NCBI GenBank assembly: GCA_944326385.1
Contig: CALVDT010000074.1
Coordinates: forward strand, 1-34,412
From: an uncultured Bacteroidales bacterium
GTDB taxonomy: Bacteria; Bacteroidota; Bacteroidia; Bacteroidales; UBA932
DNA length: 34,412 bases
Direction: 5' to 3'
Shown here: positions 5,849 to 29,628 of the stretch, piece by piece
Numbering within the stretch: position 1 is the stretch's first letter
How the letters are laid out: each line of letters begins with the position of its first letter
Notes under the pieces: model-generated
Seen by the model: the letters and a program-made list of their open reading frames with translations, nothing else
The model's database searches: none
Told to the model about the DNA's origin: nothing
Position numbers and translations under genes: made by a program

Positions 5849-6301
5849 ATGGAAACTCAAAATCTGATAAAAGCCTTGCTGTTCGCTGTCCTGATTCCGG
5901 TATCGGCATGCAAAAGCCCTGAAATCACCGAAGGGGAAGCGGAAGGCATAGATGAAGAACTGGTGGCGGCCTTCTCCGGGAACACTGATTACGGATTCTA
6001 CAGCGGTAACACCGACCCTGAATACACGCTTGACCTGCTGACACAGGAGATGATATACAATACAAAGTCCGGAAAGTTCATGATCCAGGACGAGGACAGG
6101 AATGTGCTTGTCTCCGTAACGCTGACACCTTCCGGTCAAGACGGGTTCTACTCCGTGGAGATAGAGTCCGCCGAAGCCGATATCCGGAAAGGCAGTTTCC
6201 GGATGAAAGCCGTGAAACATGAAGGTGACAGGATATGGCTCTGGGAAGCGGGGAACGGATTCGGGATTATTATACTCGGTCCGTCCCGGCTTGAGGCCTG
6301 A
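5849..6301 (+). CDS. Small lipoprotein of unknown function
   Basis: A 150-aa protein with a lipoprotein signal peptide ending VSAC (Cys21). The mature part is acidic and beta-rich in appearance (alternating segments such as YSVEIESAEAD and WLWEAGNGFGIIIL). No family is recognised. It starts 11 bp after the esterase gene and is followed within a few bases by a strong terminator, so it is the last gene of the operon. Confidence 0.75.
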   Translation: METQNLIKALLFAVLIPVSACKSPEITEGEAEGIDEELVAAFSGNTDYGFYSGNTDPEYTLDLLTQEMIYNTKSGKFMIQDEDRNVLVSVTLTPSGQDGFYSVEIESAEADIRKGSFRMKAVKHEGDRIWLWEAGNGFGIIILGPSRLEA

Positions 6302-6396: not shown

Positions 6397-7587
6397 TTAA
6401 CGGAGAATCTTCTTTACTGCGCGGACAAACCTTTCTGTTGATTTGTTGGACTGATATGCATTCTTGTTCGCACCTACCTTGATCGCCCATACTTTCTCTT
6501 GCGAATATTCGCAACAGCTTAAATAATATGACTCATACTGTATAGGTGCTCCTCCATATGACTCAAGATAAGAATTTATGAGTTCGACTCCAGGCGCATC
6601 CGTTCCTGCAGTATTATTGTAAAGTGCTATAAGTTCCTTTCTCGACGGCATGTACCATCCTTCACCGAGGTCGGTGCAGAACTTGGCGGCAGGATAGGCG
6701 GTGGCAAAATTCGTAAGAGCCTGCAGGATAGCAGTATTGCCGAGCCCCTCCTCAGGATTGCTCTCCGTGCCGGCCTCGATATTTTCAGTACTCCAAGCCA
6801 GCGATGCTTCCTGCAGAGACAGGATCTTGATATAGGTATCAGTAATGTCGAATATCATACCTCCCTCATACAAGGCGCCCACGGCCAGATCCTCAGGTGC
6901 GGTGGTATTCTGCTTCACCGTCACATTCACAGACAGGACCTTGTCATCCTGTCCTGCGCTTACTGTCGCAACAGCGGATCTTATCGCCCCCGTGCTGTTC
7001 TGCGACAATGCAGTGAACACGACTTCGCTGCCGGATATCTCTGCCTGCAGCCAGCTTTCCGCCCCTTCCTCGACAGACACTCTCACATCAGTCTTGTTCG
7101 TCTCGAAAGTGACTGTTGCCCTGGAATCCGCCTCGGCGGCAAGTTCGGCATTAGGATCCGCTATCGTCAGGATCGTGGTTTCGGAAGACTCGTCACGGAT
7201 TTCCTGACGGACGTCTATGGTAGCCGTCGCAGTATTGTCGCCTTCTCCGGCAGTCACGGTGATGACAGCAGTCCTTTCTGCGCCCGTATCATTCGGCTGT
7301 GCGGCTATCGCCCTCAATATCTTGCCCTCGCATTCCGCAGTGAGCCATGTTTCACTTGAAACGGCGGTGAATTTCATCTGGTTGCTCTTTATCGTGGCTT
7401 CACCGGCATCGAACATTGACCCGCCGATCACTATTTCAGTCTTCGAGAAAGACAGTGTCGCCTCAGGGACTGTTTCCGGCCCCGGATCAGGCATGGTCTC
7501 TCCTTCATCAATCTCCAGGGCTTCGCTATTGCAAGCCACTGCTGCAGCCATCGCTGCAAAAAAGAACAGTCTGGTTATCTTTTTCAT
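6397..7587 (-). CDS. BACON-BACON-DUF1566-like lipoprotein, candidate surface glycan-binding protein
   Basis: A 396-aa lipoprotein (lipobox AVAC, Cys19) with a Pro/Glu-rich linker. Two BACON-type Ig-like domains follow at about residues 45-128 and 136-226, each with the WL-x-A core and a terminal VRQ or VKQ strand. The C-terminal part (232-396) has features of the DUF1566/Fib_succ_major group: GGMIFDIT, then CTDLGEGWYMPSRKEL, then RFVRAVKK. BACON domains act as spacers or mucin/glycan contacts in PUL proteins. It is the last gene of the operon GH2-GH50-this, 24 bp after the GH50-like gene. Because no SusE/SusF-like gene follows SusD, this protein is the best candidate here for surface glycan binding; that is inference. 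Confidence 0.75.
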   Translation of the reverse strand: MKKITRLFFFAAMAAAVACNSEALEIDEGETMPDPGPETVPEATLSFSKTEIVIGGSMFDAGEATIKSNQMKFTAVSSETWLTAECEGKILRAIAAQPNDTGAERTAVITVTAGEGDNTATATIDVRQEIRDESSETTILTIADPNAELAAEADSRATVTFETNKTDVRVSVEEGAESWLQAEISGSEVVFTALSQNSTGAIRSAVATVSAGQDDKVLSVNVTVKQNTTAPEDLAVGALYEGGMIFDITDTYIKILSLQEASLAWSTENIEAGTESNPEEGLGNTAILQALTNFATAYPAAKFCTDLGEGWYMPSRKELIALYNNTAGTDAPGVELINSYLESYGGAPIQYESYYLSCCEYSQEKVWAIKVGANKNAYQSNKSTERFVRAVKKILR

Positions 7588-7611: not shown

Positions 7612-9168
7612 TCAGTTGTCAAAAAAATCCATCAGCCTGTAAGTATTGTAATTCAGGTCTCTTGTGTATTTAGCCATCCACGGATAGACATTGTACCAAT
7701 TGTCGATGAGGCCTTTGTTTGCAGGCTTGCCGCTGTTGTCGTCACCGTCGTCGTCCTGGTATTTGAACCAATGCCATCCCACGCAGTTCTTCGCTTCCAG
7801 AAGTCCCAAGGTGAAATGCTGATAGGCGAAAGCCCTCTCCTTCTGTGTCGGTACGGCATAGCCGGCTCCGGAAAGATTGTTGAGATCGGTATCCATGCCC
7901 TTGGTATAGAATTCAGTCACGATGAAAGGTGCATCAGGAGCCCAGGTCTCCCAGTCCTTAACCGCACCTGTCAGTTCCACGTCCCATCTCGAATAGTAGT
8001 TTATGGAAATCACGTCGCACCATCTGCCTGCGGCCCTGATTACATGTTCCATGTACTTTGGCGTCCCGTGAAGTCTGGAGCCGAGATAGAGCATATCCTT
8101 GTCTACTTTCAGCAAAGCCTCTTTCACGCCTTTGTAGTAACGCTCCGCAAGCATTCCTGCGAATTCATCGTTCAGTTCTTCAGTGACCGCCGATGCTCCC
8201 TTTTCATTCATGAACTTCTCGGCTTCCTGGTATGCGACATCGGATTTGCTGCCTTTGAGTATCCTGTCAAGCAGACGGGAATTCATGGAAGAGAAATCTA
8301 TTTCGTTGTCGGAGAAGAAACCGATGACATTCGGGTCACCGATGTAAGGGGCAAGTTCCGTCCGAATGAAGTCTTCGCAGAATGCTGGCCATTCATCGTG
8401 CAGGACAAGCCCGATCGCAGTGTTCGAATCACCGTTGCAGTACGAGAAGCCATACTCCTTCCGGAATCCGGACAGGAAACCGAAAGACGGAGCCAGGGTT
8501 ATCGGAGTATCCGGGTGCGCCCTGTTGAACGACTGTATCGTCTGGTAAGTACCGATGCAGAATGCGCCTGAACCGTGGAAGCCCATCTTCGCCAGCTCCT
8601 CCTGAGTCTCCTCCAGCCATGTCATATCGTTTCCGAACTTCGCCCTGAATGCCTCGTCATTCCTCGCGGAAGATCCCTTCCTCAATGATGCCACACCCCT
8701 CTGATGATGAGGATATCCTTCAGGATCTATGAAATACCAGCGGCCGTCTATCTTCTTGACCTGGAAACGTCCGGTGGCTTCATACGGTCCCATGTCTGTC
8801 CTGCTGCCGTATTTGTTCGTGGCAGCCATATAGTCGGCTCTGGTGCACTCATAGTCGAAGCCTACGAGATATGGGACAATACGTGTTTTAGCGGTCTTCC
8901 AGCTGTTTACGGGAACTGAAGAAGAATATTGCACCGAAACAGGCAAGTAAGGGTCGTTGCTGAATGAATTCGCATAATTCTCCTGAGGGAGATGCTCCGG
9001 AAGGACCAGCACTTCGTCCGGATCGGACGGCTCAGACGGCTGTTCCGGCTCCTCGGACGATGAACCCCCGCCTGTTACGGGAGGCGGTGCATCGGGGGCC
9101 TTTGTGCAGCCGGAAACGGTGACTGCAATCCCTGTGAGCAATGAAATCAGTAATAATCCGGTTTTCAT
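7612..9168 (-). CDS. GH50/agarase-like glycoside hydrolase, lipoprotein (second copy)
   Basis: A 518-aa lipoprotein. The start at 9168 (MKTGLL) gives a good signal peptide with lipobox VSGC; an in-frame ATG at 9177 is the alternative. A Pro/Ser/Glu-rich linker follows the cysteine. The catalytic region matches the protein at 1967-3391: GFFSDNEID with acid/base Glu289, FIVTEFYTKG with nucleophile Glu419, and also YLGSRLHG, CDVISINYYS and GWHWFKYQD. The gene begins within 20 bp of the GH2-fusion stop codon, so they are co-transcribed. It differs from its paralogue by its long linker and by insertions in the first half of the barrel, suggesting a different site of action or substrate size. Confidence 0.7.
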   Translation of the reverse strand: MKTGLLLISLLTGIAVTVSGCTKAPDAPPPVTGGGSSSEEPEQPSEPSDPDEVLVLPEHLPQENYANSFSNDPYLPVSVQYSSSVPVNSWKTAKTRIVPYLVGFDYECTRADYMAATNKYGSRTDMGPYEATGRFQVKKIDGRWYFIDPEGYPHHQRGVASLRKGSSARNDEAFRAKFGNDMTWLEETQEELAKMGFHGSGAFCIGTYQTIQSFNRAHPDTPITLAPSFGFLSGFRKEYGFSYCNGDSNTAIGLVLHDEWPAFCEDFIRTELAPYIGDPNVIGFFSDNEIDFSSMNSRLLDRILKGSKSDVAYQEAEKFMNEKGASAVTEELNDEFAGMLAERYYKGVKEALLKVDKDMLYLGSRLHGTPKYMEHVIRAAGRWCDVISINYYSRWDVELTGAVKDWETWAPDAPFIVTEFYTKGMDTDLNNLSGAGYAVPTQKERAFAYQHFTLGLLEAKNCVGWHWFKYQDDDGDDNSGKPANKGLIDNWYNVYPWMAKYTRDLNYNTYRLMDFFDN

Positions 9169-9186
9169 ATGAAACATCTTGTTTTG

Positions 9187-12100
9187 TTAGAAACATCTGT
9201 AAATCCTGACTGCATTCAGGACAGGGCTTCCCTTGCGCGGGATAAAGCGGATGTCAAGTCCTTCCCCGCCATATGCATCGACCGTGAATTTCTTCACCAC
9301 GGCAGTCTCAGGGCCGCATTCCCGGGCGATATTGAAGTCCTTCAGCACCTTGACGCCATTGATCGTGACATCGAACTCCCGCTCTCCGGCAGCCTCCCTT
9401 ATGGCATCGTTCCCGAGATTATAGGCCAATACCTCTTTCTCGCTGTCCGAGACAAGCTCTGCAAAATAGAGATAGACATAATACCTCCCGTCCGGGACAT
9501 CGGCCCTGAACCCTTCCAGACCTTCCCTCTGCGTCTGGAAGACAGGGTCCTGGTCAGTATTCAGGATATCGATATCGGAGCATGGGAGAGAGCCGTGCCT
9601 GGTCTTTGTCCTGACGGCTTCGCCTCCGGTATAGCCCCAGCTTCCGGCTGTGTATTCCTGCTCCGGAATCCATACCATTTCCGCTGTCCTGTCTTCAAAA
9701 TAACGCCTTGATCCGAGCATGACATTCATTTCCGTGAATTCAAGACTTCCGTCAAATACAGCCGGAACCATCCGGAAATCCACACTGAGGATATCCTCAA
9801 GCCTGATTCCGTCTTTTTCAGCCACTGCCTTGAGAATATTCTCTCCGTCGGTGAACGGAACCTCGAACACAGCCGTCATCCCATCCGTCTGCACCATGCC
9901 GAGATCATTGCCGTTATGGTAAAGCCGGATCTGTGAAGCATTCGAATATACCTCCACCGGCTGCGGACACACTCCGGTACTGTCAGGGACACCGCCGCGG
10001 ATTTTCCACCCGTGTCCTCCTATCCTGAGCTCCGGCTTGTCCGAAAGCCATGTCCTGTACAGGTAATACGTGTCTTTGCGCTCCCTGTCCAGCCCTGTTA
10101 TCCCCTTGCTGTTCACATGCGGCACCGCATCCCGTCTGCTTTCAGAATAAAAGGAATTGAGATTCCAGACCGTGGTTCCTGCAAGCCATTTCCTGGAAAG
10201 GATTTCAGGTATATAATGATGATGGTACATCAGTCCGTACTCGCACGAGAAATCGAATCTCTCAGGCTCGAAAGAATGCAGTCTCGGATCGACATCTGCA
10301 CCGTATTCCGTCACGAGAAGGCTCTGCTCGGGGTACATGGCGTGCAGCTTGCCGAGGGTCTTCCGGAAACCGTCGAAACCGCCTCCGTACCAGCCGTTGT
10401 ACAGGTTCCAGCCCAAAATGTCTGGAAGCCGGCTTATGCCGCATTCATTGTAGAGGGCAGGATTGCTGTGGCACGGAAGCATGGTATACCTGTCCGGGTC
10501 TATCTTCTTGATGGTATTCTCTATGTCTTCCGCCACTGAATAAAGGAAGTCCATGTATGCCTTCTTCCCTGCTTCATCCTCATCATCGTACGGCGGACGC
10601 AGGAGGACTTCATTCATATAAGCCCACATCACCACGGACGGGCTGTTGAAATCCTGCCAGACCATCTCCTCGGCCATTCTGACACAGTTCTCCCTGAATT
10701 CCCCGGAAACGGTGACGGCATTTACCACCGGAATCTCCACGGAAGCGACAATACCGTACCTGTCGCACATCTGGGTCACGACCGGGTCCTGCGGATAATG
10801 CGATATCCTCAGGAAATTCCCGCCCATGTCCTTCAGCAACCGGACATCCCTGACATGCATCTCGTCGGCAAGGGCATTGCCCTTAAGGTAATAGTCCTGA
10901 TGCCTGTTGGTACCCATGAGTTTGGTGTATTTCCCGTTCAATGAAAAGCCTTCATCAGGATCGAAGGAGAACCACCTTATACCGAACCGCTCCGAAACCA
11001 TGTCCTTCTTCTTTCCCGTCTCGTCGCTGAGGACTGTCACTACCCTGTAGATGCCGGGAGTATCCATACTCCACAGTACAGGATCCTTTATCTTGAACCG
11101 GGTACTGTCCAGATGGTTCTCCTTGCCGGCCGGAATCCTTATCTTCCTGCTTCCCGAGGCCACAGGCTTCCCGGAAGGGTCCAGGACCGTCTGCGTCAGC
11201 ACGACCGTTTCATCCGAAGGACTGTCATTCGACAGCCGGGTGCATATCCTGACTGCCGCCTTCCTGCGGGATTCGCACTCTGTCGAAACATATACGCCTG
11301 AAGTGGCATAATGTGTCGGGGATATGTGCACATCAGGAGTGATGATCAGAGAGACATCCCTGTAGATGCCGCCGAAAAATGTGAAATCGGCCGACAAGGG
11401 AGGTATATCGGCATCGAAGGAATTGTCCACGATGACCTTTACTGAATTGCCGCCCTTCCTGACCATGTCCGTGACATCAAGACAGAAAGCGGTATATCCT
11501 CCCTTGTGCACACCTGCAGAACGTCCGTTCACGAAAACCTCGGCCACCTGGTTGGCTCCCTCGAAATGGAGGAAGAAACTCCTGCCGTCCGTATCTTCGT
11601 TTATCATCAACGTCTTGGCATATATACCCTTGCCCCTGTAATAGCCCGGGGTCTCATCCTGACTGTCGATATTGTTCCATGTATGGGGCAGGTTCACCGC
11701 AACGGTATCGGATTCCCCTTCCCTGCAGAATTTCCATGACTCGTTCACGGAACGGACTACCCTGCCGATGCAGCCCCCGTAACACATTTCGAGCACTTTC
11801 CCTGCATACCTCTCCCCGAGCAGTATCTGTCCGTCCCTGCCGAAATGAGGGTCGGAAGTGTCCTTCAGAGGAGTACAGCCTTCGGAAGACACGTAGTCGG
11901 AATATGGTATTTTCCCGGATATCCGGCGTATCACCGGGTTGAATCTGGCGGCATTCCTGTGCCAGCCCGCTATTTCTCCGGCGATGAACGGGACCTGCGG
12001 TGCATCGAGATCCTTCCTCAGCGAGTCGACAATGACCGCAAGCCTGTCCAGATAAGTCTCCGGGGAGCTGCTGTCAGCCTCACCCTGGTGCCACAATATG

Positions 12101-12579
12101 GCCTTGAGGCGGCCATGCTTAAGAGCCTGCCCAGTGCGTCTGACCGCTTCACTGTAGTATTCTCCGGCTACAGCCCATTCAGAGACGGATGTACCGCCGC
12201 GGGCATTCACCACCAGAAGGATTTTCCGTCCGGTCTCGGCAGCTATCTTCCTTGAAAAGCTGAAGCCAGGATTTATCTGCTGCATGGACAGGCTTTTCCT
12301 GATGCTTGAAAACCTGTTCAGAGGGTTCGTCGCCGGGACTGGATTTCCCTTGTCGTCAAGCAGGCAGACGTTTTCATCAAAGACCTGCGCGTCCTCTTCA
12401 AGCATGGTCCCGCGTCCGGCCATGTTCGACTGCCCGATCAGAAGGAACACATCATATCCGTCCTTTTCTCCGCTCCCGCAGGAAATGTCTGACGGTCCGG
12501 ATGCCAAAGCCACGTATTGGAATACCTGAAGGACCAGAACGGCGATGACGACAAAAGCCGGTTTCAATATTTTCCCCAT
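9187..12579 (-). CDS. SGNH/SASA acetylesterase - GH2 glycosidase - malectin fusion protein
   Basis: An 1130-aa exported protein with a signal peptide (residues 1-27). Residues 42-270 are an SGNH-type carbohydrate esterase of the sialate O-acetylesterase/DUF303 group: GQSNMAGRG (Ser51), HQGEAD (164-169) and DPHF (Asp243, His245). A complete GH2 follows, about 275-860: sugar-binding domain (LPHTWN), Ig-like domain, and TIM barrel with acid/base Glu657 (AYMNEV) and nucleophile Glu758 (VTEYGAD). The last 170 residues resemble a malectin domain. The expected activity is beta-galactosidase-like hydrolysis coupled to deacetylation, in the periplasm or at the surface. It is the first gene of the operon leading to the GH50-like and BACON proteins. 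Both catalytic sites look intact, so this is a true bifunctional fusion rather than a remnant. Confidence 0.85.
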   Translation of the reverse strand: MGKILKPAFVVIAVLVLQVFQYVALASGPSDISCGSGEKDGYDVFLLIGQSNMAGRGTMLEEDAQVFDENVCLLDDKGNPVPATNPLNRFSSIRKSLSMQQINPGFSFSRKIAAETGRKILLVVNARGGTSVSEWAVAGEYYSEAVRRTGQALKHGRLKAILWHQGEADSSSPETYLDRLAVIVDSLRKDLDAPQVPFIAGEIAGWHRNAARFNPVIRRISGKIPYSDYVSSEGCTPLKDTSDPHFGRDGQILLGERYAGKVLEMCYGGCIGRVVRSVNESWKFCREGESDTVAVNLPHTWNNIDSQDETPGYYRGKGIYAKTLMINEDTDGRSFFLHFEGANQVAEVFVNGRSAGVHKGGYTAFCLDVTDMVRKGGNSVKVIVDNSFDADIPPLSADFTFFGGIYRDVSLIITPDVHISPTHYATSGVYVSTECESRRKAAVRICTRLSNDSPSDETVVLTQTVLDPSGKPVASGSRKIRIPAGKENHLDSTRFKIKDPVLWSMDTPGIYRVVTVLSDETGKKKDMVSERFGIRWFSFDPDEGFSLNGKYTKLMGTNRHQDYYLKGNALADEMHVRDVRLLKDMGGNFLRISHYPQDPVVTQMCDRYGIVASVEIPVVNAVTVSGEFRENCVRMAEEMVWQDFNSPSVVMWAYMNEVLLRPPYDDEDEAGKKAYMDFLYSVAEDIENTIKKIDPDRYTMLPCHSNPALYNECGISRLPDILGWNLYNGWYGGGFDGFRKTLGKLHAMYPEQSLLVTEYGADVDPRLHSFEPERFDFSCEYGLMYHHHYIPEILSRKWLAGTTVWNLNSFYSESRRDAVPHVNSKGITGLDRERKDTYYLYRTWLSDKPELRIGGHGWKIRGGVPDSTGVCPQPVEVYSNASQIRLYHNGNDLGMVQTDGMTAVFEVPFTDGENILKAVAEKDGIRLEDILSVDFRMVPAVFDGSLEFTEMNVMLGSRRYFEDRTAEMVWIPEQEYTAGSWGYTGGEAVRTKTRHGSLPCSDIDILNTDQDPVFQTQREGLEGFRADVPDGRYYVYLYFAELVSDSEKEVLAYNLGNDAIREAAGEREFDVTINGVKVLKDFNIARECGPETAVVKKFTVDAYGGEGLDIRFIPRKGSPVLNAVRIYRCF

Positions 12580-12602: not shown

Positions 12603-12610
12603 CAAAATTA
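12603..12610 (-). promoter_or_regulatory. -7 box of the GH2 operon
   Basis: On the minus strand this reads TAATTTTG, matching TAnnTTTG, 23 bp before the ATG at 12579. No TTTG -33 box is present at 19-21 bp, which fits a promoter that needs an activator. Confidence 0.55.
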
Positions 12611-12630: not shown

Positions 12631-12676
12631 ATGTTACGCGAGTACAATATAATATCAAAATAATCCACAACATGTC
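12631..12676 (-). promoter_or_regulatory. Candidate HTCS operator of the GH2 operon
   Basis: Read on the minus strand, this 46-bp element is identical at 29 of 46 positions to 21652-21697 upstream of susC, including 21 of the first 26 positions. The shared core is TGGATnATTTTGAyATT. It ends 20 bp before the -7 box. Its first bases overlap the stop codon of the HTCS gene (12675-12677). Confidence 0.6.
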
Positions 12677-15600
12677 ACCTGCCGGAAAGTTCTTTTCTGC
12701 AGGCATTCGGAGTCTTTCCATACATGGCCTTGAAGCATTTTATGAAATAGCTCGGAGAACTGAACCCGAGGGAATATGCTATGTCCACCATACTTGCATC
12801 CGGCTGCTCCTTCAGTCTGACCACAGCCTGCTTCAGACGTATGGTCGAAATGAAGCCGTTCGGCGACTGGCCGGTCAGCCCTTTTATCTTAGTAAACAGG
12901 TATGTGCGGCTCAAGCCCATTTCCTTCGCGAACACCTCTATGCTGAATTCAGGGTCATCCAGATGCTTCATCACGACAGCCACGGCATTCTCGAGCATGG
13001 CCTGCTCCCGAGGATTCTCCGTCAGCATCTTCACGGAAGCCTCGGGTTGCTGGAGATATTTCTGCTGCAGCCGTCTGCGTCCCTCCACCAGATTGTTGCA
13101 TCTGGCGACAAGTATCTTGACGTTGAACGGTTTGGTGACATAATCATCTGCACCGGTCTGCAGGCCTTTCACTATCTGGCTTTCCGCTGTCTTCGCGGTC
13201 AGGAGGACGATCGGGATATGGCTGGTCTCCATATTGTTCTTCAGCTTGCGGCACATTTCAAAACCGGACATGCCAGGCATCATCACATCGCTGAGTATGA
13301 TGTCCGGGCTGTCCGCCAATGCCATGGCTATCCCTTCTTCCCCGTTCCTGGACGAAGATACCTTGTAGACAGGCGAGAAAATCTGGACAAGCATGTCCCG
13401 GACCTCGTCGTTATCCTCGACTACCAGCATCTTCACGGTTTTTTCGCTGTCCCGTTTTTCTTGAGTGTTTTCCTGCGGAAGCCCTGCGGCAATGACCGGA
13501 TCCGGGGTATATTCCCTGAGCAGTTCCGATGTCTTGTCCCTGCTGTCCTCATGCACGATCACGGTCTCGGCCTTGAATACGGGATGCATCGGAAGAACTA
13601 CGGTGAAGCAGGTCTCCTTCTCAGGCTCGCTCGTGACAGAAATGCTTCCGCCATGCATCTCCACTATAGCCTTGCTGAGAGAAAGCCCCACCCCGGAACC
13701 CTGATAGGAAAGCTTTGCATTCAGTTTGTCATCCTGAAAGAAGCGCTCGAAAACATGTGCGATATTCGCTGGATCTATACCGGCGCCGTCATCCTTCACC
13801 GAGACAGACACGGAATCCCCGGTCTCCTGCACCGTCATGCCGATATGCCCGCCTTCACGGGTGAACTTGAATGAATTCGACAGCAGGTTGAAGAACACTT
13901 TCTCCATCTGTACCGGATCGAAAAGCATGACCACAGGATGATCCGGGCCGCAGAAACCGAAATCGATCTTCCTGTACTGGGCATATTCTTCAAAAGACAC
14001 ATAGATTTCCCGCAGAAAGGCCATCATATCCTTCTCCTGCACTTTCAGCTTCATCTTTCCTGCATCCTGTTTCCTGATGTCGACAATCTCGTCCACAAGC
14101 CGTCTCAGTCTTCTGGAATTCCGGTAGATGCTGAGAATGCGGGAATACACCGACGGTTTCAGGTCGCTTCTCTGCAGAATCAGTTCCAGCTGCCCGTCGA
14201 TAAGCGTAAGCGGAGTGCGGAACTCGTGGGATATGTTCGTGAAAAGCCTGAGTTTCTCCTGGTTCACCTGGCTTATATATGCCTTCTCCCTTTTCTCCAG
14301 GTCAAGGAGAGACCTGAGCCTTATGCTCGTGATATATGTCCTGATTATGTAATAGGATACAATCATCACGGCGGCAAGGCACAGGAGGATGAACCATCCG
14401 GTTCTGTAGAACGGCGGGATTACCTTGATGGCGACCCTGGAAGACGGGAAATCCCCGTCCGGCCCCGGGATCAGGCCCTTCACGATGAACGTATAGTTCC
14501 CGGGATTAAGGTTGGTGTAAGTCACATGATCCGTACCGGAGGCCTTGATGAACTCCTGGTCGAACCCTGTCATCCTGTATTCGACCTGCAGGCCTGAACT
14601 GTTGTTGCCGTAATCCGTATTCGATATGTCGAAACCTATTGCAGAGTGTCCCGGCCGCAGTATTATCCTGTCCTGGAACAGGATGTCCTCTTTCAGCACT
14701 GCCTTTTTCCCTGACGGGTCGGGGGAAATATGCCTGTTGTCTATCAGAAGTCCTGAAATATAGACATTATAGTTCCTTGGGCTGCCTACCAGGCTGTCGC
14801 ACTGCACCGACACGAGCCCGTTCATGTCACTGGCGAACAATTCCCCGGAAGACGAAATGAAAAGGCTGTTGTCGTTTATGCTCGACAGAGGAAAGCCGTT
14901 CGCCGGATTATATACGTCCACTGTTCCTGATCCGGGACAGAATCTGGCAAGACCGTTGTTGGTGGCGATATAGATATAGCCCGTCCGCCTGTCCTCAGCC
15001 AGCCCTGTCACATAGCCGTTTGCCATCTTCTCCGCAGGCACTGCATTCCGGAAACTGTCGTCTGCCTTGTCATAAAGGAAGACACCGGAGCCGGAAGAGC
15101 CGAACCACAGCCTGCCGCGGCTGTCACGCAGGATCGAGTTGAGGTTGTTGTTGGCCCTGGCGGAACCGAAATCATGGAACGGATAATATTTCGTGGATCT
15201 GTTCTCTATATTATAGCAATACAGATCGGAGGAGGTCGTGAACCACAGATTCCCGTCTTCATCCAGCTCCATGTCCCAGACCTGGGCCTGGTAATTCTTG
15301 TCGAAGCCTGTCTCCAGTTTCGACATCTCTCCTGTCTTCTTGCCGAAAAGGAAAATGCCGTAATTCGTGGCCAGCATGATGGAGTCCTGTCCGAACGGTT
15401 TCATCATGACGATGTTCTCAATGTTCGGAAAACCGCAGTCCCTGCTTCCGATACCGTAGTTCGTAATCGTCCCGGTACCGATATCGTACCTGTCGATGCC
15501 GTCACGGAGCGTAGCGATATACAGAGCGTTCTCCTCCCGGTCATACAGCGTAGTCTTTATCACATCGGAAGCCAGTCCGTCCGATACCGTCATGGTCTCG

Positions 15601-16742
15601 AACTGCCTTGTGACCACATCCATACGGCTGAGCCCTCCGCCTTCTGTGCCTACCCAGAGATTTCCGTCCGAATCTTCCGAAACGGAATTCGACAGCGGTG
15701 AATTCAGCTTGCCTTCAGCCTCCGTTTCCGGTGTATAATAGAAATAAGTCTCCGCTTCAGTATTATAATAGCTCACGCCCTCGTAGAAGGAACCGAACCA
15801 GAGAGTCCCCTGCCTGTCGCATATCATCGAGATTATGGACCTTACATTGAATGCATGGTGCTGGAATCCGTATTTATACCTGACAAAACAGTCTTCATCC
15901 GGATCATACCTGCAGACGCCTCCGTATGTCCCCAGCCAGAAATTCCCGTCCAGATCCTCGCAGACCTGACGGACATTGTCGTGCGGAATCGAGGCATCGT
16001 CGGAAGGATCATGCCTGTAACGGGATATCCCTCCGCCCTTGCTTACAAGATAGACGCCTTCATTGCGGGAGGCTATCCATATGTTCCCTTTGCTGTCTTC
16101 AAAGATGGAATTCGCTGCGCCCGACTCCAGATGCATGATGACGTGCCCGTTCCTGTTTATCCTGTAGAATCCGTCCGTGTTCGTACAGACGCACATATCC
16201 CCGGACCTGGTGATGATGAAGCAGTCGATGGCAGCCTCGTCGAGACCTGCCCCGCTGAAATCGAAGACTGTCCGGAATTCCCCGTCCGCCATCCTGCACA
16301 GCGACCCTGTGCGTGCTATCCAGAGGGACTCCCCGTCATGGAAAATATACCTGACATCCCGGTCTTCGAGCATCCTGAATGTGACGGACCTCATGTCGAA
16401 TTCGGAGACGCTGTTCAGTCCTTTTATGTAAAGATGGCCGTTCTGGTCACCGCATATCTGCCGGATATTGTTGTCAACAAGCCATGTGGTGTCAGAGCCG
16501 TACCCCCCCCCGACACCGGGCTTGAAGACTTTCGTCTTGTGCCCGTCAAACCTGTTGAGGCCAACCATCGTCCCGATCCAGATGAAACCGAACTCATCCT
16601 GATAGATGGCATTGGCTGTCTGGTGCGAAAGACCGTCTTCCGTGCCGAGGTGCTTGACCATTATGTCCCGTGGGATAGCCATAGCCGTGATACAGCCCGA
16701 TATCAGGACCGGAATGGCAAACAGTATGCGGTGCGTTTTCAT
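12675..16742 (-). CDS. Hybrid two-component system regulator (HTCS) of the PUL
   Basis: A 1355-aa one-protein sensor-regulator. The start at 16742 (MKTHRILF, signal peptide) is preferred over an upstream ATG at 16853. The periplasmic part has two Reg_prop beta-propellers with repeats such as IWIGTMVGL, FWLGTYGGV and LWFGSSGSG, then a Y_Y_Y domain and a membrane helix (WFILLCLAAVMIVSYYII). The cytoplasmic part has HisKA (NISHEFRTP, His839), HATPase_c (NLLSNSFKFT, GSGVGLSLS), a receiver domain (DVMMPG, Asp1152; Lys in YVTKPF) and a C-terminal AraC HTH pair. All key residues are present. It should sense a glycan fragment in the periplasm and activate the susC, GH2 and GH50 promoters. A run of nine G in the coding strand falls at residues 78-80. 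The gene starts 175 bp after the SusD stop codon. Confidence 0.95.
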   Translation of the reverse strand: MKTHRILFAIPVLISGCITAMAIPRDIMVKHLGTEDGLSHQTANAIYQDEFGFIWIGTMVGLNRFDGHKTKVFKPGVGGGYGSDTTWLVDNNIRQICGDQNGHLYIKGLNSVSEFDMRSVTFRMLEDRDVRYIFHDGESLWIARTGSLCRMADGEFRTVFDFSGAGLDEAAIDCFIITRSGDMCVCTNTDGFYRINRNGHVIMHLESGAANSIFEDSKGNIWIASRNEGVYLVSKGGGISRYRHDPSDDASIPHDNVRQVCEDLDGNFWLGTYGGVCRYDPDEDCFVRYKYGFQHHAFNVRSIISMICDRQGTLWFGSFYEGVSYYNTEAETYFYYTPETEAEGKLNSPLSNSVSEDSDGNLWVGTEGGGLSRMDVVTRQFETMTVSDGLASDVIKTTLYDREENALYIATLRDGIDRYDIGTGTITNYGIGSRDCGFPNIENIVMMKPFGQDSIMLATNYGIFLFGKKTGEMSKLETGFDKNYQAQVWDMELDEDGNLWFTTSSDLYCYNIENRSTKYYPFHDFGSARANNNLNSILRDSRGRLWFGSSGSGVFLYDKADDSFRNAVPAEKMANGYVTGLAEDRRTGYIYIATNNGLARFCPGSGTVDVYNPANGFPLSSINDNSLFISSSGELFASDMNGLVSVQCDSLVGSPRNYNVYISGLLIDNRHISPDPSGKKAVLKEDILFQDRIILRPGHSAIGFDISNTDYGNNSSGLQVEYRMTGFDQEFIKASGTDHVTYTNLNPGNYTFIVKGLIPGPDGDFPSSRVAIKVIPPFYRTGWFILLCLAAVMIVSYYIIRTYITSIRLRSLLDLEKREKAYISQVNQEKLRLFTNISHEFRTPLTLIDGQLELILQRSDLKPSVYSRILSIYRNSRRLRRLVDEIVDIRKQDAGKMKLKVQEKDMMAFLREIYVSFEEYAQYRKIDFGFCGPDHPVVMLFDPVQMEKVFFNLLSNSFKFTREGGHIGMTVQETGDSVSVSVKDDGAGIDPANIAHVFERFFQDDKLNAKLSYQGSGVGLSLSKAIVEMHGGSISVTSEPEKETCFTVVLPMHPVFKAETVIVHEDSRDKTSELLREYTPDPVIAAGLPQENTQEKRDSEKTVKMLVVEDNDEVRDMLVQIFSPVYKVSSSRNGEEGIAMALADSPDIILSDVMMPGMSGFEMCRKLKNNMETSHIPIVLLTAKTAESQIVKGLQTGADDYVTKPFNVKILVARCNNLVEGRRRLQQKYLQQPEASVKMLTENPREQAMLENAVAVVMKHLDDPEFSIEVFAKEMGLSRTYLFTKIKGLTGQSPNGFISTIRLKQAVVRLKEQPDASMVDIAYSLGFSSPSYFIKCFKAMYGKTPNACRKELSGR
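16503..16511 (-). repeat. Homopolymeric G9 tract near the start of the HTCS gene
   Basis: Nine consecutive C on the plus strand (G on the coding strand) encode part of PGVGGGYG at about residue 78. One-base slippage here would truncate the regulator. Confidence 0.9.
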
Positions 16743-16882
16743 GTCATTGGATGTGTTGAGAAACCATGCAGCCGCCAAAGGTAGCAATTCCCGGACGAAT
16801 TCCATCGTCAGATTCGCATGGTTTTCTTCTATCCTGCGAAGGCCTGCCTGCAACCCCGTTCAGGACCGATGGCATTTGAATG

Positions 16883-16905
16883 AGGGCGACCTTTTGAGCC
16901 GCCCT
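16883..16905 (-). terminator. Weak hairpin after SusD
   Basis: AGGGCG (16883-16888) pairs with CGCCCT (16900-16905) around an 11-base loop, 12 bp beyond the SusD stop. It is not followed by a U-tract, so termination would be partial and read-through into the HTCS gene is possible. Confidence 0.3.
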
Positions 16906-16917
16906 TGTGCTTCAACT

Positions 16918-18516
16918 TTATAACCAACCCTCATTCTGAGGAAAATTCTCCACTCCCATGAAGTCCAGTTCCGACTGAGGGATAGGCCATCTGTAATGCT
17001 TCGGCTCGAAATTGGCCCTCTGCTGTGCAAGACTCGTCTGGTCTTTGAGCATAGGATCCTCTTCAGGAGTATCGCCTCCATGAAGGACTACCCTCTCCAG
17101 CATACCGAGACGTTTGAGCAGTGACCATCTCACACCTTCGAAATGGCATTCCCTGGCATACTCATCCAGCAGGTCGTCTATGGTTACCGGACCGTCGAAA
17201 TGGTCGTTGCCGGCCCTCTCCCATGTCTTGTTGAAATACTCTATGGCCTTGGCGCTTCCGCCTCCGTCCCTGTGATAATATGCCTCGGCAGCCATGAGAT
17301 AGGTTTCAGCGAGTCTGTAAAGGACGATATCCTTGTAGCTGGTCCTGCGTTCGATGTTGTCGGCATTGGTCCAGCCGTCAAAATATTTGAGCGTCATGGG
17401 ATGGACATTGCCTATATAGTCGGACCCTGTAGCAGGTATCACTTCATCCCCGAGATTCTTTCCCTCAGGAAGGGTTGCAGGGTCGTTGTAGTACCATTTG
17501 TGGCGGAACAGTTCAGTGTACCTCCTGTCCTTTTCCTGATCATACAGGCCAAGGAGATAGCTGTTTGGATAGCAGCGTCCCCAGCCGTAGCCTCCATATT
17601 CCGTAGAGAACGTGAGACCGGCCATCTTGTAATACTGCGTCGTAACCTGCAATGCCATCCTGTGACCGCTCACCTCTCCGTCGTCGCTCACGCTGTTGCC
17701 GCCTCCGAGATTCCCGGAGAACTGGTAGACATAGAGGTTCTCCTTGCAGTTGAGATCGGCTCCTGTGAAACATTCTATGGCGCTGTCCATCATTCCATAT
17801 GAAGGGCATTCGAAGATATCCTCACACTGTTCTATGGCAGTGGTCCAGTCGTCTTCCCACATGGCCACCTGGGCTCTGATGTGCTTTGCGACCGCCTTGG
17901 TCCATCTTCCCGGCTGGTCGGTCCAGTCAAGAACCTCCATGGCATCGTCCAGGTCTGTCTTGACCACCTCGAATATGGCTTCCTTTCCCGACGGCTTGAA
18001 CACCCTGTCGATATTGCCGATTGTAGTAGGCACTGTATTCAGATACAGCCGTTCAAACCTTTTGTACAATTCAAAATACGATCTTGCCCGGAAGACCTTC
18101 GCTTCACCCCAGGCTTTCTTTACGACAGGATCGTCCATATCCATCCGTTCCGCGTGGTAAATGACCTCGTTGGCCTTTCCTATGATCTGGTAATACCGCT
18201 CCCAGACCTTTCTGAAATTCCCATTCGAGGCATTCAGACCGCTCAGACGGGCAAGAGCGGCTCCGCTGCCGGATCTGTAAAGAAGGATATCCGTACCCGA
18301 ATCCATCATCAGAGATGCAAACAGGTCGCCTTCCCCGTCCCTGATTATGCTCCTGTCCTGGTCGTACAGTGCAATCACCATCCTGTCCAGACCGTCAGGA
18401 GTCGTGACAAGCCAGCTGGAAGTGACTTCCGTCTTCGATTCCTCCTGAAGCATCTTCGTGCAGGAAGAAAGGATGCCGGCCGATAATAAAACTGCTGCTA
18501 TCAAATATTTCTTCAT
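16918..18516 (-). CDS. SusD/RagB family outer-membrane lipoprotein
   Basis: A 532-aa starch-utilisation-type substrate-binding lipoprotein that caps the SusC transporter at the cell surface. The start at 18516 (MKKYLI) gives a lipobox LSSC; an ATG two codons earlier is possible. Typical SusD features are the TPR-like first half (AKVFRARSYFELYKRF), the YRLAETYLMAAEAYY helix with a following AIEYFNKTWERAG, and a closing segment (LDFMGVENFPQNEGW). It starts just after the SusC stop codon, so the pair is co-transcribed. The ligand cannot be read from the sequence. Confidence 0.93.
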   Translation of the reverse strand: MKKYLIAAVLLSAGILSSCTKMLQEESKTEVTSSWLVTTPDGLDRMVIALYDQDRSIIRDGEGDLFASLMMDSGTDILLYRSGSGAALARLSGLNASNGNFRKVWERYYQIIGKANEVIYHAERMDMDDPVVKKAWGEAKVFRARSYFELYKRFERLYLNTVPTTIGNIDRVFKPSGKEAIFEVVKTDLDDAMEVLDWTDQPGRWTKAVAKHIRAQVAMWEDDWTTAIEQCEDIFECPSYGMMDSAIECFTGADLNCKENLYVYQFSGNLGGGNSVSDDGEVSGHRMALQVTTQYYKMAGLTFSTEYGGYGWGRCYPNSYLLGLYDQEKDRRYTELFRHKWYYNDPATLPEGKNLGDEVIPATGSDYIGNVHPMTLKYFDGWTNADNIERRTSYKDIVLYRLAETYLMAAEAYYHRDGGGSAKAIEYFNKTWERAGNDHFDGPVTIDDLLDEYARECHFEGVRWSLLKRLGMLERVVLHGGDTPEEDPMLKDQTSLAQQRANFEPKHYRWPIPQSELDFMGVENFPQNEGWL

Positions 18517-18527
18517 GTCCATGACCT

Positions 18528-21500
18528 TTAGAATGTGAGATTAAGTCCGAAAACCCATTGTCTTGCTTCAGGATACGATCCCGGCGTAAGTTCAGGGCTG
18601 TATGACAGGAACTTTGTGAGAGTAAAGACGTTGGTTCCTGTCACATAGAACCTGAGTCTTTCTATTTTCGCCTTTCCGGTGAGAGAAGCAGGTATGGTAT
18701 ATCCCAATGTCAGTGTCCTGAGCCTGATATAGGAAGCATCCTGATAGGACAGTGAGGAATGATAGGAAATACCCTGGCTGTTTCTCGGGCGAGGATATTC
18801 GTTTGAAGGATTCTGAGGCGTCCAGTAGTTGACCTTGATTCCGTTCAGCTTGCCGGCAAGCGAGCCTCCGCTGTTGTAGTCATACAGGTACTTGTTCTGG
18901 ATGACCCTGCCGTAGACTCCGTAGAAGTCGGCATAAAGGTCGAAGCCTTTCCATTTGAAAGTGGTGTTGAGAGACATGATGAACTTCGGATCCCGCGGGA
19001 TGACCACACGGTCTTCTGCATCGATTTTTCCGTCGTTGTTCACATCCTTGACCTTTATTGCACCCGGATATACTTCGGAATCGGTGTCTATCGGAGCATC
19101 GGGGATTCCGTCTCCGTCTGAATCGAATGTAGGCTTCAGTTCATATTTGCCGTCCACAAGGTTGAAATCCTCGAACTGGTAGATTCCGTCGAACTGGTAG
19201 TCATAGTATACACTCAGAGGCTGGCCTATGAACCATTTGTTGTTTATGTCGTCCTGCTGGTTCCCGTCCTCGTCAGTCAGACCGTTTATCCTGAGTATCC
19301 TGTTCCTGTACAGGGAGAAGTTGGTCCCCACACTCCAGAGCAGTCCGGGTTTCCTGATGATGTCGCCGGCAAGGGAGATCTCTGTTCCCCACGTGCGGGT
19401 CTTGCCCATATTGTCGGTTATGGAATCATACCCCAGGGCACTGCTTATGCTTCTGTCTACAAGCAGATCCCTTGTCGTGGTAGTGTAATATTCGACACTT
19501 CCGGTGAGCCTGTTGTCGAAGAACCCGAAATCCACTCCGACATTCGTCTGTGATGTCGTCTCCCATCCTATGTAAGGGTTGGTCAGTTCGCTTCCAGGCA
19601 GGTAGCCTACGACATATTCGTTTCCGAATTCCATCTCATGCGCATCGGCAAGTCCGAGACTCTTGTATCTGCTCAGTCCGCTATGGGCCCCTACCTGTCC
19701 CCAGCTGGCGCGCAGCTTGAGGTTCGATACGGATTTTGCGGATTCCATCCATGGCTCTTCGGAGATAAGCCATCCGGCGGAGAAGGACGGGAATGTAGCC
19801 CATTTGTTGCTCGGGCCGAACTTGCTGTCACCGTCCCGGCGTACGGAAGCCGTGAAGAGATATCTGTCCTTGAAGCTGTACTGTACGCGGCCCATGAACG
19901 AAAGCATGGTCTCCTCTGCATAGCTTCTCGTGATTTCGGTCACTTCACCGTTCGGCAGCATGTTCCAGTCCATGTCCACCGGGACATTGTTGGCACCGTA
20001 TGACATGGATCTGTTCAATGTGTAGTCATAGCTCTGCACGAGTGTCAGATTCAGCCTGTGGTTCATGTTCCTGACAGGGACTGTGTATGTTATGATGTTC
20101 TCCACGAGGTAGTTCTCGTGTTTTGTATCCTTGAGGGTACCGGAACCGGTGCTGCCTATATCCTCGGAAGATGTGTACTGCCCGTCTTCGTTGAAACTGT
20201 TGTAGTAGGATAGGTTCAGCCTGTAGTTGAATCCTTTGAAGAACTTGAAGTCGAAGAATGTGTTCAGCCTGTAGTAGTCGCGTCCGATGGTCCTCTGGAA
20301 ATACTGGGAAGAATAGAGCGGATTCGGATCATTGGCGCTGTTGATGTACATGGCATAGCTGCCGTCTTCGTTGTATACGTTCGCTATAGGCGTCCTGGTG
20401 ATGAATTCGGTGAAATTACCGTATTCACGGTCCTGGCCGCTCTTGGCATAAGAAGCATTGACACCTATCGACAGCCATTTGTAGACGTTGAAATCCACAT
20501 TGAGACGGGCTGTCGCCCTCTGGTAGCCTGAACCTGTCCTGATCATACCTGCCTGGTCATAGTAACCGAGCCCGACGGCTACCCTGATCTTGTCTGTCCC
20601 TCCGCTGATGCTCAGGTCGTGTTTCTGCGTCCAGGCGGGCTTGAACATGAGAGATTCCCAGTCGGTGAACTGCTTTTTCTCATAAAGCTCCTCCATGATG
20701 GCGTCGTTGAGGACATATGAAGGGACGAGTGCCTCATAATCTTCCGGATTGTAGAACATATTGTCCCCCGCGTATGCTTCCCGGCGGAGATTGTAGAATT
20801 CTTCCCCGTCGTAGAAATCGAAGTTGCGCCACAGGGTGGAGATGCTGCCATAGCTGTTCAGATTCACTCTGACCTTATCCGACGAGCCCCTTTTCGTAGA
20901 AACGAGGATGACACCGTTCGCCGCCCTTGTACCGTAGATGGCCTGCGATGCCGCATCCTTCAGCACTTCTATGGAAGCGATGTCGGTGCTGTTTATCATT
21001 CCGAATTCATCCGCCGAGGCTGGCGAACCGTCTATCACATACAGAGGCTCGTTCCCTCCTGTCAGGGAGCGGCTGCCTCGGATCTTGATCTCGGCATTCG
21101 AACCCGGGCGTCCTGATGAAGAGGTGATCTCGACTCCGGCGATCCTTCCCCGTAGCATGTCTGCCGCATCTGAACCTGGAGTGTAGCTCATGTCCTCCAT
21201 GTTTACCGAAGCGACCGCCCCGGTGATGTCTTTTCTTCTCTGCATACCGTATCCGACCACCACAAGAGCTTCAAGCTGCTGCGAATCTTCGGTCATGAAG
21301 ACATCTATCCTGCTGCTTTTCCCCACAGTGATCTCCTGGTCGGAATATCCGATATACGAAAATACCAGGACCGTCCCTTCTCCGGCCGGAATGGAATATT
21401 CACCTTTCTCGTCGGTCACGGTTCCTGTCGTCGTCCCCTTGACAAGGACATTGACACCCGGCAATGCTCCGATTTCATCGGAAACGACTCCGGTAATGTT

Positions 21501-21578
21501 CGTCTGCGCAAACGCCGATGATATGGCGGCGAATGCCAGAGACACGATTAGTGAAAGTCTGATTAATCGGGTTCTCAT
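18528..21578 (-). CDS. SusC/RagA family TonB-dependent outer-membrane transporter
   Basis: A 1016-aa TonB-dependent importer for oligosaccharides. It has a signal peptide (ending AFAQ), a carboxypeptidase-regulatory-like domain (about 27-105: GALPGVNVLVKGTTTG), a TonB-box region (EALVVVGYG), and a plug (MLRGRIAGVEITSSSGRPG, PLYVIDGSP). A 22-strand-type beta-barrel follows and ends in the expected terminal Phe (GLNLTF). No STN domain is seen, so it is not the ECF-sigma-linked subtype; this fits control by the HTCS. It is the first gene of the SusC-SusD operon, with its own promoter and the best copy of the candidate HTCS operator upstream. Confidence 0.95.
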   Translation of the reverse strand: MRTRLIRLSLIVSLAFAAISSAFAQTNITGVVSDEIGALPGVNVLVKGTTTGTVTDEKGEYSIPAGEGTVLVFSYIGYSDQEITVGKSSRIDVFMTEDSQQLEALVVVGYGMQRRKDITGAVASVNMEDMSYTPGSDAADMLRGRIAGVEITSSSGRPGSNAEIKIRGSRSLTGGNEPLYVIDGSPASADEFGMINSTDIASIEVLKDAASQAIYGTRAANGVILVSTKRGSSDKVRVNLNSYGSISTLWRNFDFYDGEEFYNLRREAYAGDNMFYNPEDYEALVPSYVLNDAIMEELYEKKQFTDWESLMFKPAWTQKHDLSISGGTDKIRVAVGLGYYDQAGMIRTGSGYQRATARLNVDFNVYKWLSIGVNASYAKSGQDREYGNFTEFITRTPIANVYNEDGSYAMYINSANDPNPLYSSQYFQRTIGRDYYRLNTFFDFKFFKGFNYRLNLSYYNSFNEDGQYTSSEDIGSTGSGTLKDTKHENYLVENIITYTVPVRNMNHRLNLTLVQSYDYTLNRSMSYGANNVPVDMDWNMLPNGEVTEITRSYAEETMLSFMGRVQYSFKDRYLFTASVRRDGDSKFGPSNKWATFPSFSAGWLISEEPWMESAKSVSNLKLRASWGQVGAHSGLSRYKSLGLADAHEMEFGNEYVVGYLPGSELTNPYIGWETTSQTNVGVDFGFFDNRLTGSVEYYTTTTRDLLVDRSISSALGYDSITDNMGKTRTWGTEISLAGDIIRKPGLLWSVGTNFSLYRNRILRINGLTDEDGNQQDDINNKWFIGQPLSVYYDYQFDGIYQFEDFNLVDGKYELKPTFDSDGDGIPDAPIDTDSEVYPGAIKVKDVNNDGKIDAEDRVVIPRDPKFIMSLNTTFKWKGFDLYADFYGVYGRVIQNKYLYDYNSGGSLAGKLNGIKVNYWTPQNPSNEYPRPRNSQGISYHSSLSYQDASYIRLRTLTLGYTIPASLTGKAKIERLRFYVTGTNVFTLTKFLSYSPELTPGSYPEARQWVFGLNLTF

Positions 21579-21624
21579 AGATAATTATTAAAAAATGTGG
21601 TTGGTTGTTTTGTGTTTTCATGCA

Positions 21625-21632
21625 CAAAATTA
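21625..21632 (-). promoter_or_regulatory. -7 box of the susC operon
   Basis: TAATTTTG on the minus strand, identical to the -7 box of the GH2 operon, 46 bp before the SusC start codon. No TTTG -33 box is present. Confidence 0.55.
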
Positions 21633-21651
21633 TTCCAGCCACATTCCTGCG

Positions 21652-21697
21652 ATGTAATAATTATCCAGAGAAATGTCAAAATCATCCAGAATCTGTC
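21652..21697 (-). promoter_or_regulatory. Candidate HTCS operator of susC (tandem half-sites)
   Basis: Read on the minus strand, positions 7-25 of this element repeat at positions 28-46 with 15 of 19 identical (CTGGATnATTnTnACAT in both), a direct repeat with a 21-bp period, two helical turns. The element ends 19 bp before the -7 box. Related elements occur at 12631-12676 and 1871-1916 at the same spacing. Confidence 0.6.
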
Positions 21698-28153: not shown

Positions 28154-28227
28154 CATGAATTTGGAATTATTTTACCGGATTTTGAGACGCTATTACCATT
28201 TTGAACGGAAATGAATGCCTATCTTTA
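28154..28227 (+). promoter_or_regulatory. Possible promoter and weak operator copy of the DUF1080 operon
   Basis: TATCTTTA (28220-28227) differs from TAnnTTTG at the last base and lies 63 bp before the ATG. The 46 bp ending 20 bp upstream of it (28154-28199) match the susC element at 22 of 46 positions, including AATT, the ATTTT block and the terminal CAT. The half-site core is shifted by one base (TGGAATTATTTT), so this is much weaker than the other three copies. Confidence 0.3.
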
Positions 28228-28290: not shown

Positions 28291-29628
28291 ATGAAAAGAA
28301 TCATCTTGGCAGCCATTGCCTGCCTTCTCGCCATGAATGCGGATGCACAGTGGCAGTCCTTGTTCAACGGCAAGAACCTTAAAGGCTGGAAGACAGCAGG
28401 AGGAACAGCGGAGTACAAAGTTATAGACGGAGCCATCACCGGAGCCAGTACGGAAGTCAAAGGAGGGAACACTTTCCTCTATGTAGACCGTGAATACGGG
28501 GATTTCATACTCGAATTCCTGTTCAAGATAGATGAGGGCTCCAATTCAGGTGTCCAGCTGCGGAGCCATATCTCCGGTGACAGGATGTACGGATACCAGT
28601 ACGAAATCGACCCTTCTTCAAGAGCCTGGACCGGAGGGATATATGACGAAGCCCGGCTCGGATGGCTGTATCCCCTGACCGTGAACCCTGAAGCCAGGGC
28701 GGCATTCCGCCACGGCGACTGGAACAAGGCCAGAGTCGAAGCTGTCGGGAACCGTATCAGGACATGGATAAACGGTGTGCCTGCTGCAGATGTTCTCGAC
28801 GAACAGGATGCCTCCGGATATATCGCGCTGCAGGTCCATGCAGTATATGATGAAAAATCAGTGGGAAAGACAGTAAGCTGGAAGGATATACGCATCATGA
28901 CGGAAGGTCTCGAATATGAAGTGTCCCCCGAGAACGGCATAGCACAGAAGAACTGTATCCCGAACACAATCTCTGAAAGGGAGGCTGCCGAAGGATGGAA
29001 GCTGCTGTGGGACGGCAAGACCACAGCCGGATGGCACAGCCATAAATCCCCGGAATTCCCTTCAAAAGGCTGGCATATCGAGAACGGAATGCTTGTCGTG
29101 GAGAAAGCTGACGGAGCGGAATCCGGGAACGGCGGCGACATCATCACTGACAGGAAATACGGCAATTTCGAACTTACCGTGGATTTCAAGATAACGGAAG
29201 GGGCAAACAGCGGTATCAAATACTTCGTGAACCCGGATGTGAACAATGCCATGTCAGGCTCTTCAATCGGGTGCGAGTTCCAGATCCTCGACGATGCCAG
29301 ACACCCTGACGCCAAGCTCGGAGTCAACGGCAACCGCCGTCTGGGCTCCCTGTACGACCTTATCCCTGCCCCTGAGGACAAACCTTTCCGCAAAGGCTTC
29401 TTCAATACGGCAAAAATCATTGTCCGCGGCAACCATGTGGAACACTGGCTCAATGATGTCAAGCTCCTGGAATATGAAAGGAACAGCCGGATGTGGGACG
29501 CCCTCGTGGATTACAGCAAATACAGGAACTGGATCAATTTCGGCAATTTCCCTACAGGGCATATCCTTATCCAGGACCATGGGGATATGGTATACTACAA
29601 GAATATAAAGATCAAGGAACTCGATTGA
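28291..29628 (+). CDS. Double DUF1080 (3-keto-disaccharide hydrolase family) protein
   Basis: A 445-aa exported protein with a signal peptide ending NADAQ. It has two DUF1080 (PF06439) jelly-roll domains: residues about 20-205 ([34 protein letters not shown]) and about 232-445 ([47 protein letters not shown]). Single-domain members of the family act on 3-keto-glycosides by hydrolysis or elimination after a partner oxidoreductase has oxidised C3. The next gene and the last gene of this operon are such Gfo/Idh/MocA proteins, which supports that role. The tandem arrangement suggests either two substrate ranges or one catalytic and one binding domain. It starts a five-gene operon. Confidence 0.88.

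Follow-up and report, generated by a model that had tools for sequence, protein, structure and literature searches.

Two copies of a 40-bp element, each placed just upstream of a promoter, are predicted to be the operators of the HTCS encoded between those promoters in the stretch of DNA analysed here (34,412 nucleotides, referred to as the window). The probability of this assignment is put at a little under nine in ten. The copy before the susC-susD-HTCS row of genes (21652–21691, minus strand) was chosen as an operator candidate on half-site identity, conservation and first rank in a matrix search, and the copy before the SASA-GH2 operon (12631–12670, minus) on conservation and second rank in the same search. 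Many of the glycan-use loci of Bacteroidales are regulated by HTCSs; a first-pass annotation of this DNA had already suggested a likely HTCS operator here. That suggestion is favoured by the period, orientation and promoter position of the element, by its placement in the PUL and by its co-conservation with the predicted HTCS DNA-binding domain.

Results and discussion

The gene for the proposed binding protein (12675–16853, minus) lies, as had been claimed, between the susC and GH2 promoters. Domain annotation gave Reg_prop repeats, Y_Y_Y, HisKA, HATPase_c, a receiver and an AraC-type HTH_18; the propeller sensor, the kinase (HisKA and HATPase), the receiver and the AraC-type HTH all belong to a single chain. 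The reading frame starts at TTG and the true start may be inside the frame. The residues SHIP at position 1211 match the S/CHIP part of the published S/CHIP-DK motif, and the closest solved structure to the DNA-binding domain by sequence is PDB 12aw (E 2.3e-17), a hybrid two-component system protein. The proposed target susC encodes a susC-like TonB-dependent receptor (18528–21578, minus; 86% identical in the related locus L038) and is followed by a susD-like gene (16918–18522, minus), with the HTCS frame 64 bp further on the same strand.

The second target operon begins with a gene for a SASA esterase fused to GH2 (9187–12579, minus), and a 521-aa gene with no Pfam match (7612–9177, minus) and a BACON-domain gene (6397–7587, minus) are its presumed second and third members. 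SASA and GH2 form a single 1130-aa frame in the window and two separate adjacent frames in the related loci L038, L033, L032 and L034; the single frame is either a gene fusion or an assembly indel.

A 46-bp element shared by the two promoters had been described, and on recomputation its values were the same: the copies agree at 29 of 46 positions and at 21 of the first 26, and positions 7–25 of the susC copy recur at 28–46 with 15 of 19 bases identical, a 21-bp period. The TAATTTTG boxes were likewise where the first-pass annotation had placed them, 19 bp downstream of the susC element (21625–21632, minus) and 20 bp downstream of the GH2 element (12603–12610, minus), and TTTG is indeed absent from the −33 position of both promoters. 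When both strands of the whole window were searched, the next best 46-mer had 25 matches to the susC copy and 24 to the GH2 copy.

The element is thus real, but its length had been overstated. Comparison with orthologs (see below) gives a conserved part of only 40 bp, minus 21691–21652 and 12670–12631, and the outer (first) six bases of the 46-mer fall outside it, since the 40 bp upstream of the element match the orthologs at only 6–12 of 40 positions at the susC and GH2 promoters. The left and right half-sites of the susC element are at 21691–21673 and 21670–21652 (minus, period 21). Those of the GH2 element, which begins a few bases past the HTCS stop codon, are at 12670–12652 and 12649–12631 (minus). 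The GH2 half-sites agree with each other at 9 of 19 positions, so the tandem is visible by eye only in the susC copy.

Genome contigs were scanned with the HTCS protein, giving 13 loci. Five were used as orthologs: L038 (68% identity), L033, L032 and L034 (55–56%) and L035 (37%). The other eight were matches of 22–38%, some of them short, and L036, L037, L039 and L041 from among these were used in the period test described below. Genes for susC, susD, HTCS and GH2 are all present in L038 and L033; L034 has all but the start of susC, which is added by L087, L032 holds the HTCS and GH2 end of the locus, and in L035 the set is rearranged. Three relatives (L033, L034 and L035) have a DUF2264 gene ahead of susC, and in these the element stands before DUF2264, the gene in L033 lying between the promoter and susC. 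The HTCS orthologs of L034 (9938–13968) and L033 (10001–14027), both from MAGs, are each broken into two reading frames.

In these orthologous promoters the element is kept and the DNA on both sides of it is near random. Loss of the element from orthologous promoters had been named in the first-pass annotation as an outcome that would refute it, and this check came out in its favour. For the susC promoter, window and L038 half-sites match at 18/19 and 17/19 positions, compared with 8/40 in the upstream DNA and 10/19 in the 19-bp spacer between element and box; the corresponding figures for L033 are 14/19 and 16/19, 6/40 and 10/19. At the GH2 promoter, comparison with L038, L033, L032 and L034 gave 13–17/19 for the left half and 11–14/19 for the right half, with 7–12/40 upstream and 3–6/19 in the spacer for the same four relatives. 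The conservation pattern is that of a clean, putative 40-bp footprint.

Scans by similarity and by matrix, run on the relatives and on stretches of the window's own genome (a draft in 99 contigs), gave a total of 22 sites from six genomes. The first 14 were hand-picked from a similarity listing and promoter read-outs, the later ones came from matrix scans, and the uxuA site of L087 came from a pattern listing; the susC and GH2 sites of the window are the only ones that had been named beforehand by another reader. Copies of the element were found before the divergent SASA genes of L033, L032 and L034, before the BACON orthologs of L033 and L034, which have their own copy, and before uxuA in L086 (from the genome of L033) and L087 (from that of L034). 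They were also found before the DUF2264-susC operons of L086, L087 and L035 and before a 474-aa gene in L089 and L090. L091 holds one more relative of the 474-aa gene (55% identity), the third, and its promoter shows no element.

The window itself contains a third operator candidate (1877–1916, plus), in a promoter that the earlier reader missed. It stands before the 474-aa gene (1967–3391), after which comes a CBM96 gene (3405–5837), and its −7 box, TATTTTTG (1937–1944, plus), lies 20 bp past the element. The left half of this element matches at 17/19 positions in L089 and 15/19 in L090, the right half at 12/19 and 7/19, and the upstream 40 bp at 10/40 and 14/40, respectively. TTTG is present in this promoter, 22 bp before the −7 box.

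Contig C73 of the same genome (L084) carries two further copies, one upstream of a DUF2264 gene (at 2727) and one upstream of uxuA (at 6270). Three DUF2264 genes lie side by side on this contig (L084:135–5210), a minus-strand pair and a plus-strand gene, the last having a GH88-like domain as well. Between the DUF2264 and uxuA genes that carry the element there is a sensor-only, HTCS-like fragment with Reg_prop repeats (L084, G000:C73, 5182–6483, minus). It shares 34% identity with a part of the sensor of the window HTCS, and its listed frame overlaps the uxuA promoter; perhaps it is a decayed regulator whose targets have passed to the window HTCS.

A fourth candidate in the window (28160–28199, plus), in the promoter of a 3-keto-disaccharide hydrolase gene (28291–29628), has TATCTTTA 20 bp downstream. 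It was rejected as a full member of the regulon and is listed as a weak candidate only: its score of 12.0 is within the simulated maxima (6.4–14.2), and the promoters of L094 and L095 have no clear copy. A weak copy in L038 (9873, minus; score 10.2), with TATATTTG 20 bp downstream, stands before a divergent gene next to the HTCS gene, in the place occupied by the SASA sites of L032, L033 and L034, and was not counted among the 22. In L035 a place scoring 16.0 (7287, plus) is found before a 344-aa gene and may be a further target.

The half-sites are direct repeats of 19 bp each with a 21-bp period, and the element is oriented as its gene. Over the 22 sites the mean half-site identity was 10.1/19 at a shift of 21, compared with 4.7–6.5 at shifts of 15–20 and 22–27. 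The left half-site has the consensus TttTGtAcgATtTTgacAT (22 sites); the right half has a looser one, whose fourth and fifth bases are TG. An exact TAnnTTTG follows 19–21 bp downstream in 17 of the 22 sites. Five of the six box letters are present at 20 bp in the two BACON sites (L033 and L034) and the DUF2264 site of L087, and four of the six in the L035 site; the uxuA site of C73 has no −7 box near 20 bp, the nearest exact box being at 32. As the element usually ends 20 bp before TAnnTTTG, the inner half-site stands where the −33 box would be.

A matrix made from the relatives only was run over 300,599 own-genome bases. The best four places were the sites of susC (43.5), GH2 (31.9), C73 DUF2264 (20.9) and C73 uxuA (18.3), and the maxima of ten Markov simulations were 6.4–14.2; the 1877 site scored 7.8 and ranked 15. 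When only places with a TAnnTTTG box 18–22 bp downstream were counted, susC, GH2, C73 DUF2264 and 1877 took the first four ranks, and the best simulated score was 3.1. Leave-one-genome-out searches placed the five listed sites of the own genome (433,568 bases, 19% of the genome) at ranks 1, 2, 3, 5 and 6, the susC element being first, the GH2 element second and the 1877 element sixth, and the sites in the stretches of the five relatives (16,879–34,466 bases each) at ranks 1–3, 1–5, 1–2, 1–5 and 1–2. These leave-one-genome-out ranks are partly circular, since most sites outside the window were found by similarity; more independent evidence comes from the susC and GH2 sites of the window, from where the genes lie and from the distance to the −7 box.

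The place that ranked 4 with a score of 20.0, above two of the listed sites, is L116:10629 (minus), which precedes a 183-aa gene and a gene whose start reads as adenylate-kinase-like; it was taken as a chance match. L081:12824 (14.6) and L104:4993 (14.4), just above the simulated maxima, were likewise set aside, and both lack a TAnnTTTG box at 18–22 bp.

A 17-base core, TGRATKATTTTGAYATT, was also searched for. In the own genome it occurs exactly only at the two reported promoters, nowhere with one mismatch and at nine places with two. One of the 199 other genomes of the genus (G220) has an exact match, which was dismissed as chance: it lies just before a truA-like gene and has no second half-site and no box at 20 bp. 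The genome of L033 (G065), among the 200 searched, has the PUL and yet no exact core, so absence of the core from other genomes is weak evidence; the genome of L038 (G414) was outside this search.

The element might instead be the operator of another regulator, either a second HTCS or a global sugar regulator, with the adjacent HTCS acting elsewhere. The window HTCS has at least 23 matches in its own genome, and hence many paralogs, and a second complete HTCS (L086:3715–7809, minus), adjoining the uxuA gene, lies beside the uxuA site in the genome of L033. Against this, the stretches SRTYLFTKI(K/R)GL and SSPSYFIKCF, which we read as the putative recognition helices of the HTCS, are the same in the window protein and four orthologs (55–68% identical), one K/R change aside. 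They are slightly different in L035 and differ more in the seven own-genome paralogs that were aligned and in the second HTCS of L033. In the L038 and L032 stretches, both of which carry the element, the ortholog is the only HTCS match, and an exact core confined to two own-genome PUL promoters is ill-suited to a global regulator. Control by another regulator is therefore considered unlikely. Published binding or expression data for the window HTCS protein were not found.

Two other explanations of the similarity were weighed. If one promoter had arisen by duplication of the other, the likeness would reflect shared ancestry without an operator, and the boxes and spacing common to both promoters would fit; but in the orthologs the 40 bp persist where the flanks and much of the spacer do not, the half-sites in other operons vary in sequence and hold to the 21-bp period, and copies of the element stand before susC or DUF2264-susC, SASA-GH2, divergent SASA, BACON, uxuA and 474-aa genes. 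Duplication thus seems very improbable. Least credible of all is chance similarity of AT-rich promoter DNA, which does yield stray matrix matches (L116:10629 and L081:12824 being examples): the window sites rank 1 and 2 on a matrix from other genomes, at scores (43.5 and 31.9) above the ten-run simulated maxima of 6.4–14.2, and conservation of the element without its flanks in the orthologs contradicts it. Binding by the HTCS encoded between the two promoters is the reading that we prefer.

The 21-bp period was also found near other HTCS genes. TAnnTTTG boxes 18–150 bp before predicted genes were taken from loci, 41 in all, that surround other HTCS genes or matches resembling them, which gave 60 promoters once near-duplicates had been removed. 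In each, a 19-base segment whose end is 20 bp ahead of the box was compared with the 19-base segment s upstream of it. Identity was highest at s = 21, where it reached 6.42 (mean 5.12; z 6.0, n 60), a value reached by 0 of 2000 shuffles, and the own-genome subset (n = 20) gave z 4.1 at the same shift. No shift-21 signal was seen in control promoters from other own-genome contigs (z 0.04, n 49); the exclusion of HTCS genes from these controls covers the matches listed, and further HTCS genes may be among them.

The controls (L099–L120) were the starts of own-genome contigs C1–C4, C6, C8–C14, C16–C24 and C26. C5 and C15 were left out because they contain HTCS genes among the matches listed, and C7 and C25 because of weak pattern matches; L084 and L085 are in neither the HTCS-linked nor the control set. 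A first control set (L099–L110 with L056–L075), which gave z 2.1 and 24 of 2000 shuffles, was replaced, as its GH2 loci include orthologs of the PUL. TTTG is present at −33 in 4 of the 60 HTCS-linked promoters and 8 of the 49 controls, too weak a difference for depletion of the −33 box to be accepted as a general HTCS trait.

The presence of the 21-bp signal near other HTCS genes and its absence in the controls suggest that the approach is widely applicable. There may even be a general HTCS promoter code across Bacteroidota, in which half-sites are 21 bp apart and the inner one ends about 20 bp before TAnnTTTG, replacing the −33 box, although this idea is tentative and, in our estimate, falls somewhat short of an even chance.

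A possible mechanism can be outlined. Binding of an oligosaccharide by the propeller sensor, presumably in the periplasm, would lead the HTCS to phosphorylate its own receiver. Two AraC-type DNA-binding domains would then sit on the same face of the DNA in head-to-tail order, with two helical turns between them. The bound domains would be next to RNA polymerase, where activation in place of the −33 contact would most likely be class II-like and due to a phosphorylated dimer. The inner half-site is in the −33/−35 region, at a near-fixed distance from the box (exact in 17 of 22 sites), as for a class II AraC-type site. From the susC site the HTCS would drive susC, susD and, judging by the 64-bp spacing past susD, its own gene, which would amount to positive feedback. 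The GH2 site would serve the enzyme operon and the 1877 and C73 sites the CBM96, DUF2264 and uxuA genes, and glycan uptake would in this way be coupled to mannonate catabolism. The DUF2264, UxuA and SASA genes suggest, as a guess, that the substrate is an acetylated, uronic-acid-bearing glycan.

A familiar parallel is AraC at araBAD, where the I1–I2 half-sites are direct repeats spaced at a period of 21 bp. The inner half-site extends to the −35 region, and activation is of the class II type. AraC is a soluble one-component regulator that acts at a sigma-70 −35/−10 promoter and has no receiver domain. The candidate window operator is like it in having a 21-bp direct repeat with the inner half-site near the core promoter, and unlike it in that the window HTCS has a receiver.

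The first-pass annotation had called HTCS sites poorly catalogued, a view that does not hold even on the accessible portion of Ravcheev et al. (2013, PMC3878776), where motifs are predicted for 16 of the 36 HTCSs of B. thetaiotaomicron, all of them direct repeats averaging 21 bp. The same portion proposes dimers on one DNA face, two turns apart, and assigns one motif to each HTCS or group of close paralogs. As far as that text goes, the candidate window operator is like the published set in being a two-site direct repeat of 21 bp upstream of susC/susD and enzyme operons. It differs in belonging to a different HTCS from a different Bacteroidales group, and the comparison made here is of architecture rather than of half-site sequence against the published logos. 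The accessible portion reports no fixed −7 distance; here it is 19–21 bp in 17 of 22 sites.

In the available part of a 2024 study (PMC11253607), response-regulator fragments of BT4124 and BT4663 bind in EMSA to the bt4114 and bt4662 susCD promoters, which carry predicted sites, and the S/CHIP-DK motif is associated with inhibition in the absence of phosphorylation; that part gave no mapping of half-sites. On the same text, the window HTCS resembles BT4124 and BT4663 in its receiver, its AraC-type domain and its S/CHIP residues; those two were tested in vitro, whereas binding to the window elements is predicted from sequence. A further paper (PMC12125979), as represented by its available part, concerns a Vibrio regulator and only mentions HTCSs. 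No report on the present locus was found in the literature titles and abstract starts among the matches listed.

Conclusions

The operator design is already known; what is added here is a specific, predicted HTCS operator and regulon in a draft Bacteroidales-type genome. Relative to the accessible portions of the papers cited, the near-constant −7 distance, the unlinked genes and the control-tested 21-bp signal near other HTCSs are also additions.

The 40-bp element is short enough to serve as a DNA probe in a direct binding assay, and a defined operator would give candidate HTCS target genes without culturing. It connects the locus with genes on a separate contig (DUF2264 and mannonate dehydratase), which is a hint that the substrate bears uronate. 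If the tentative promoter code is true, a genome sequence would suffice for reading the operator and regulon of almost every HTCS, and unlinked targets like the DUF2264 and uxuA operons of C73 would be covered too.
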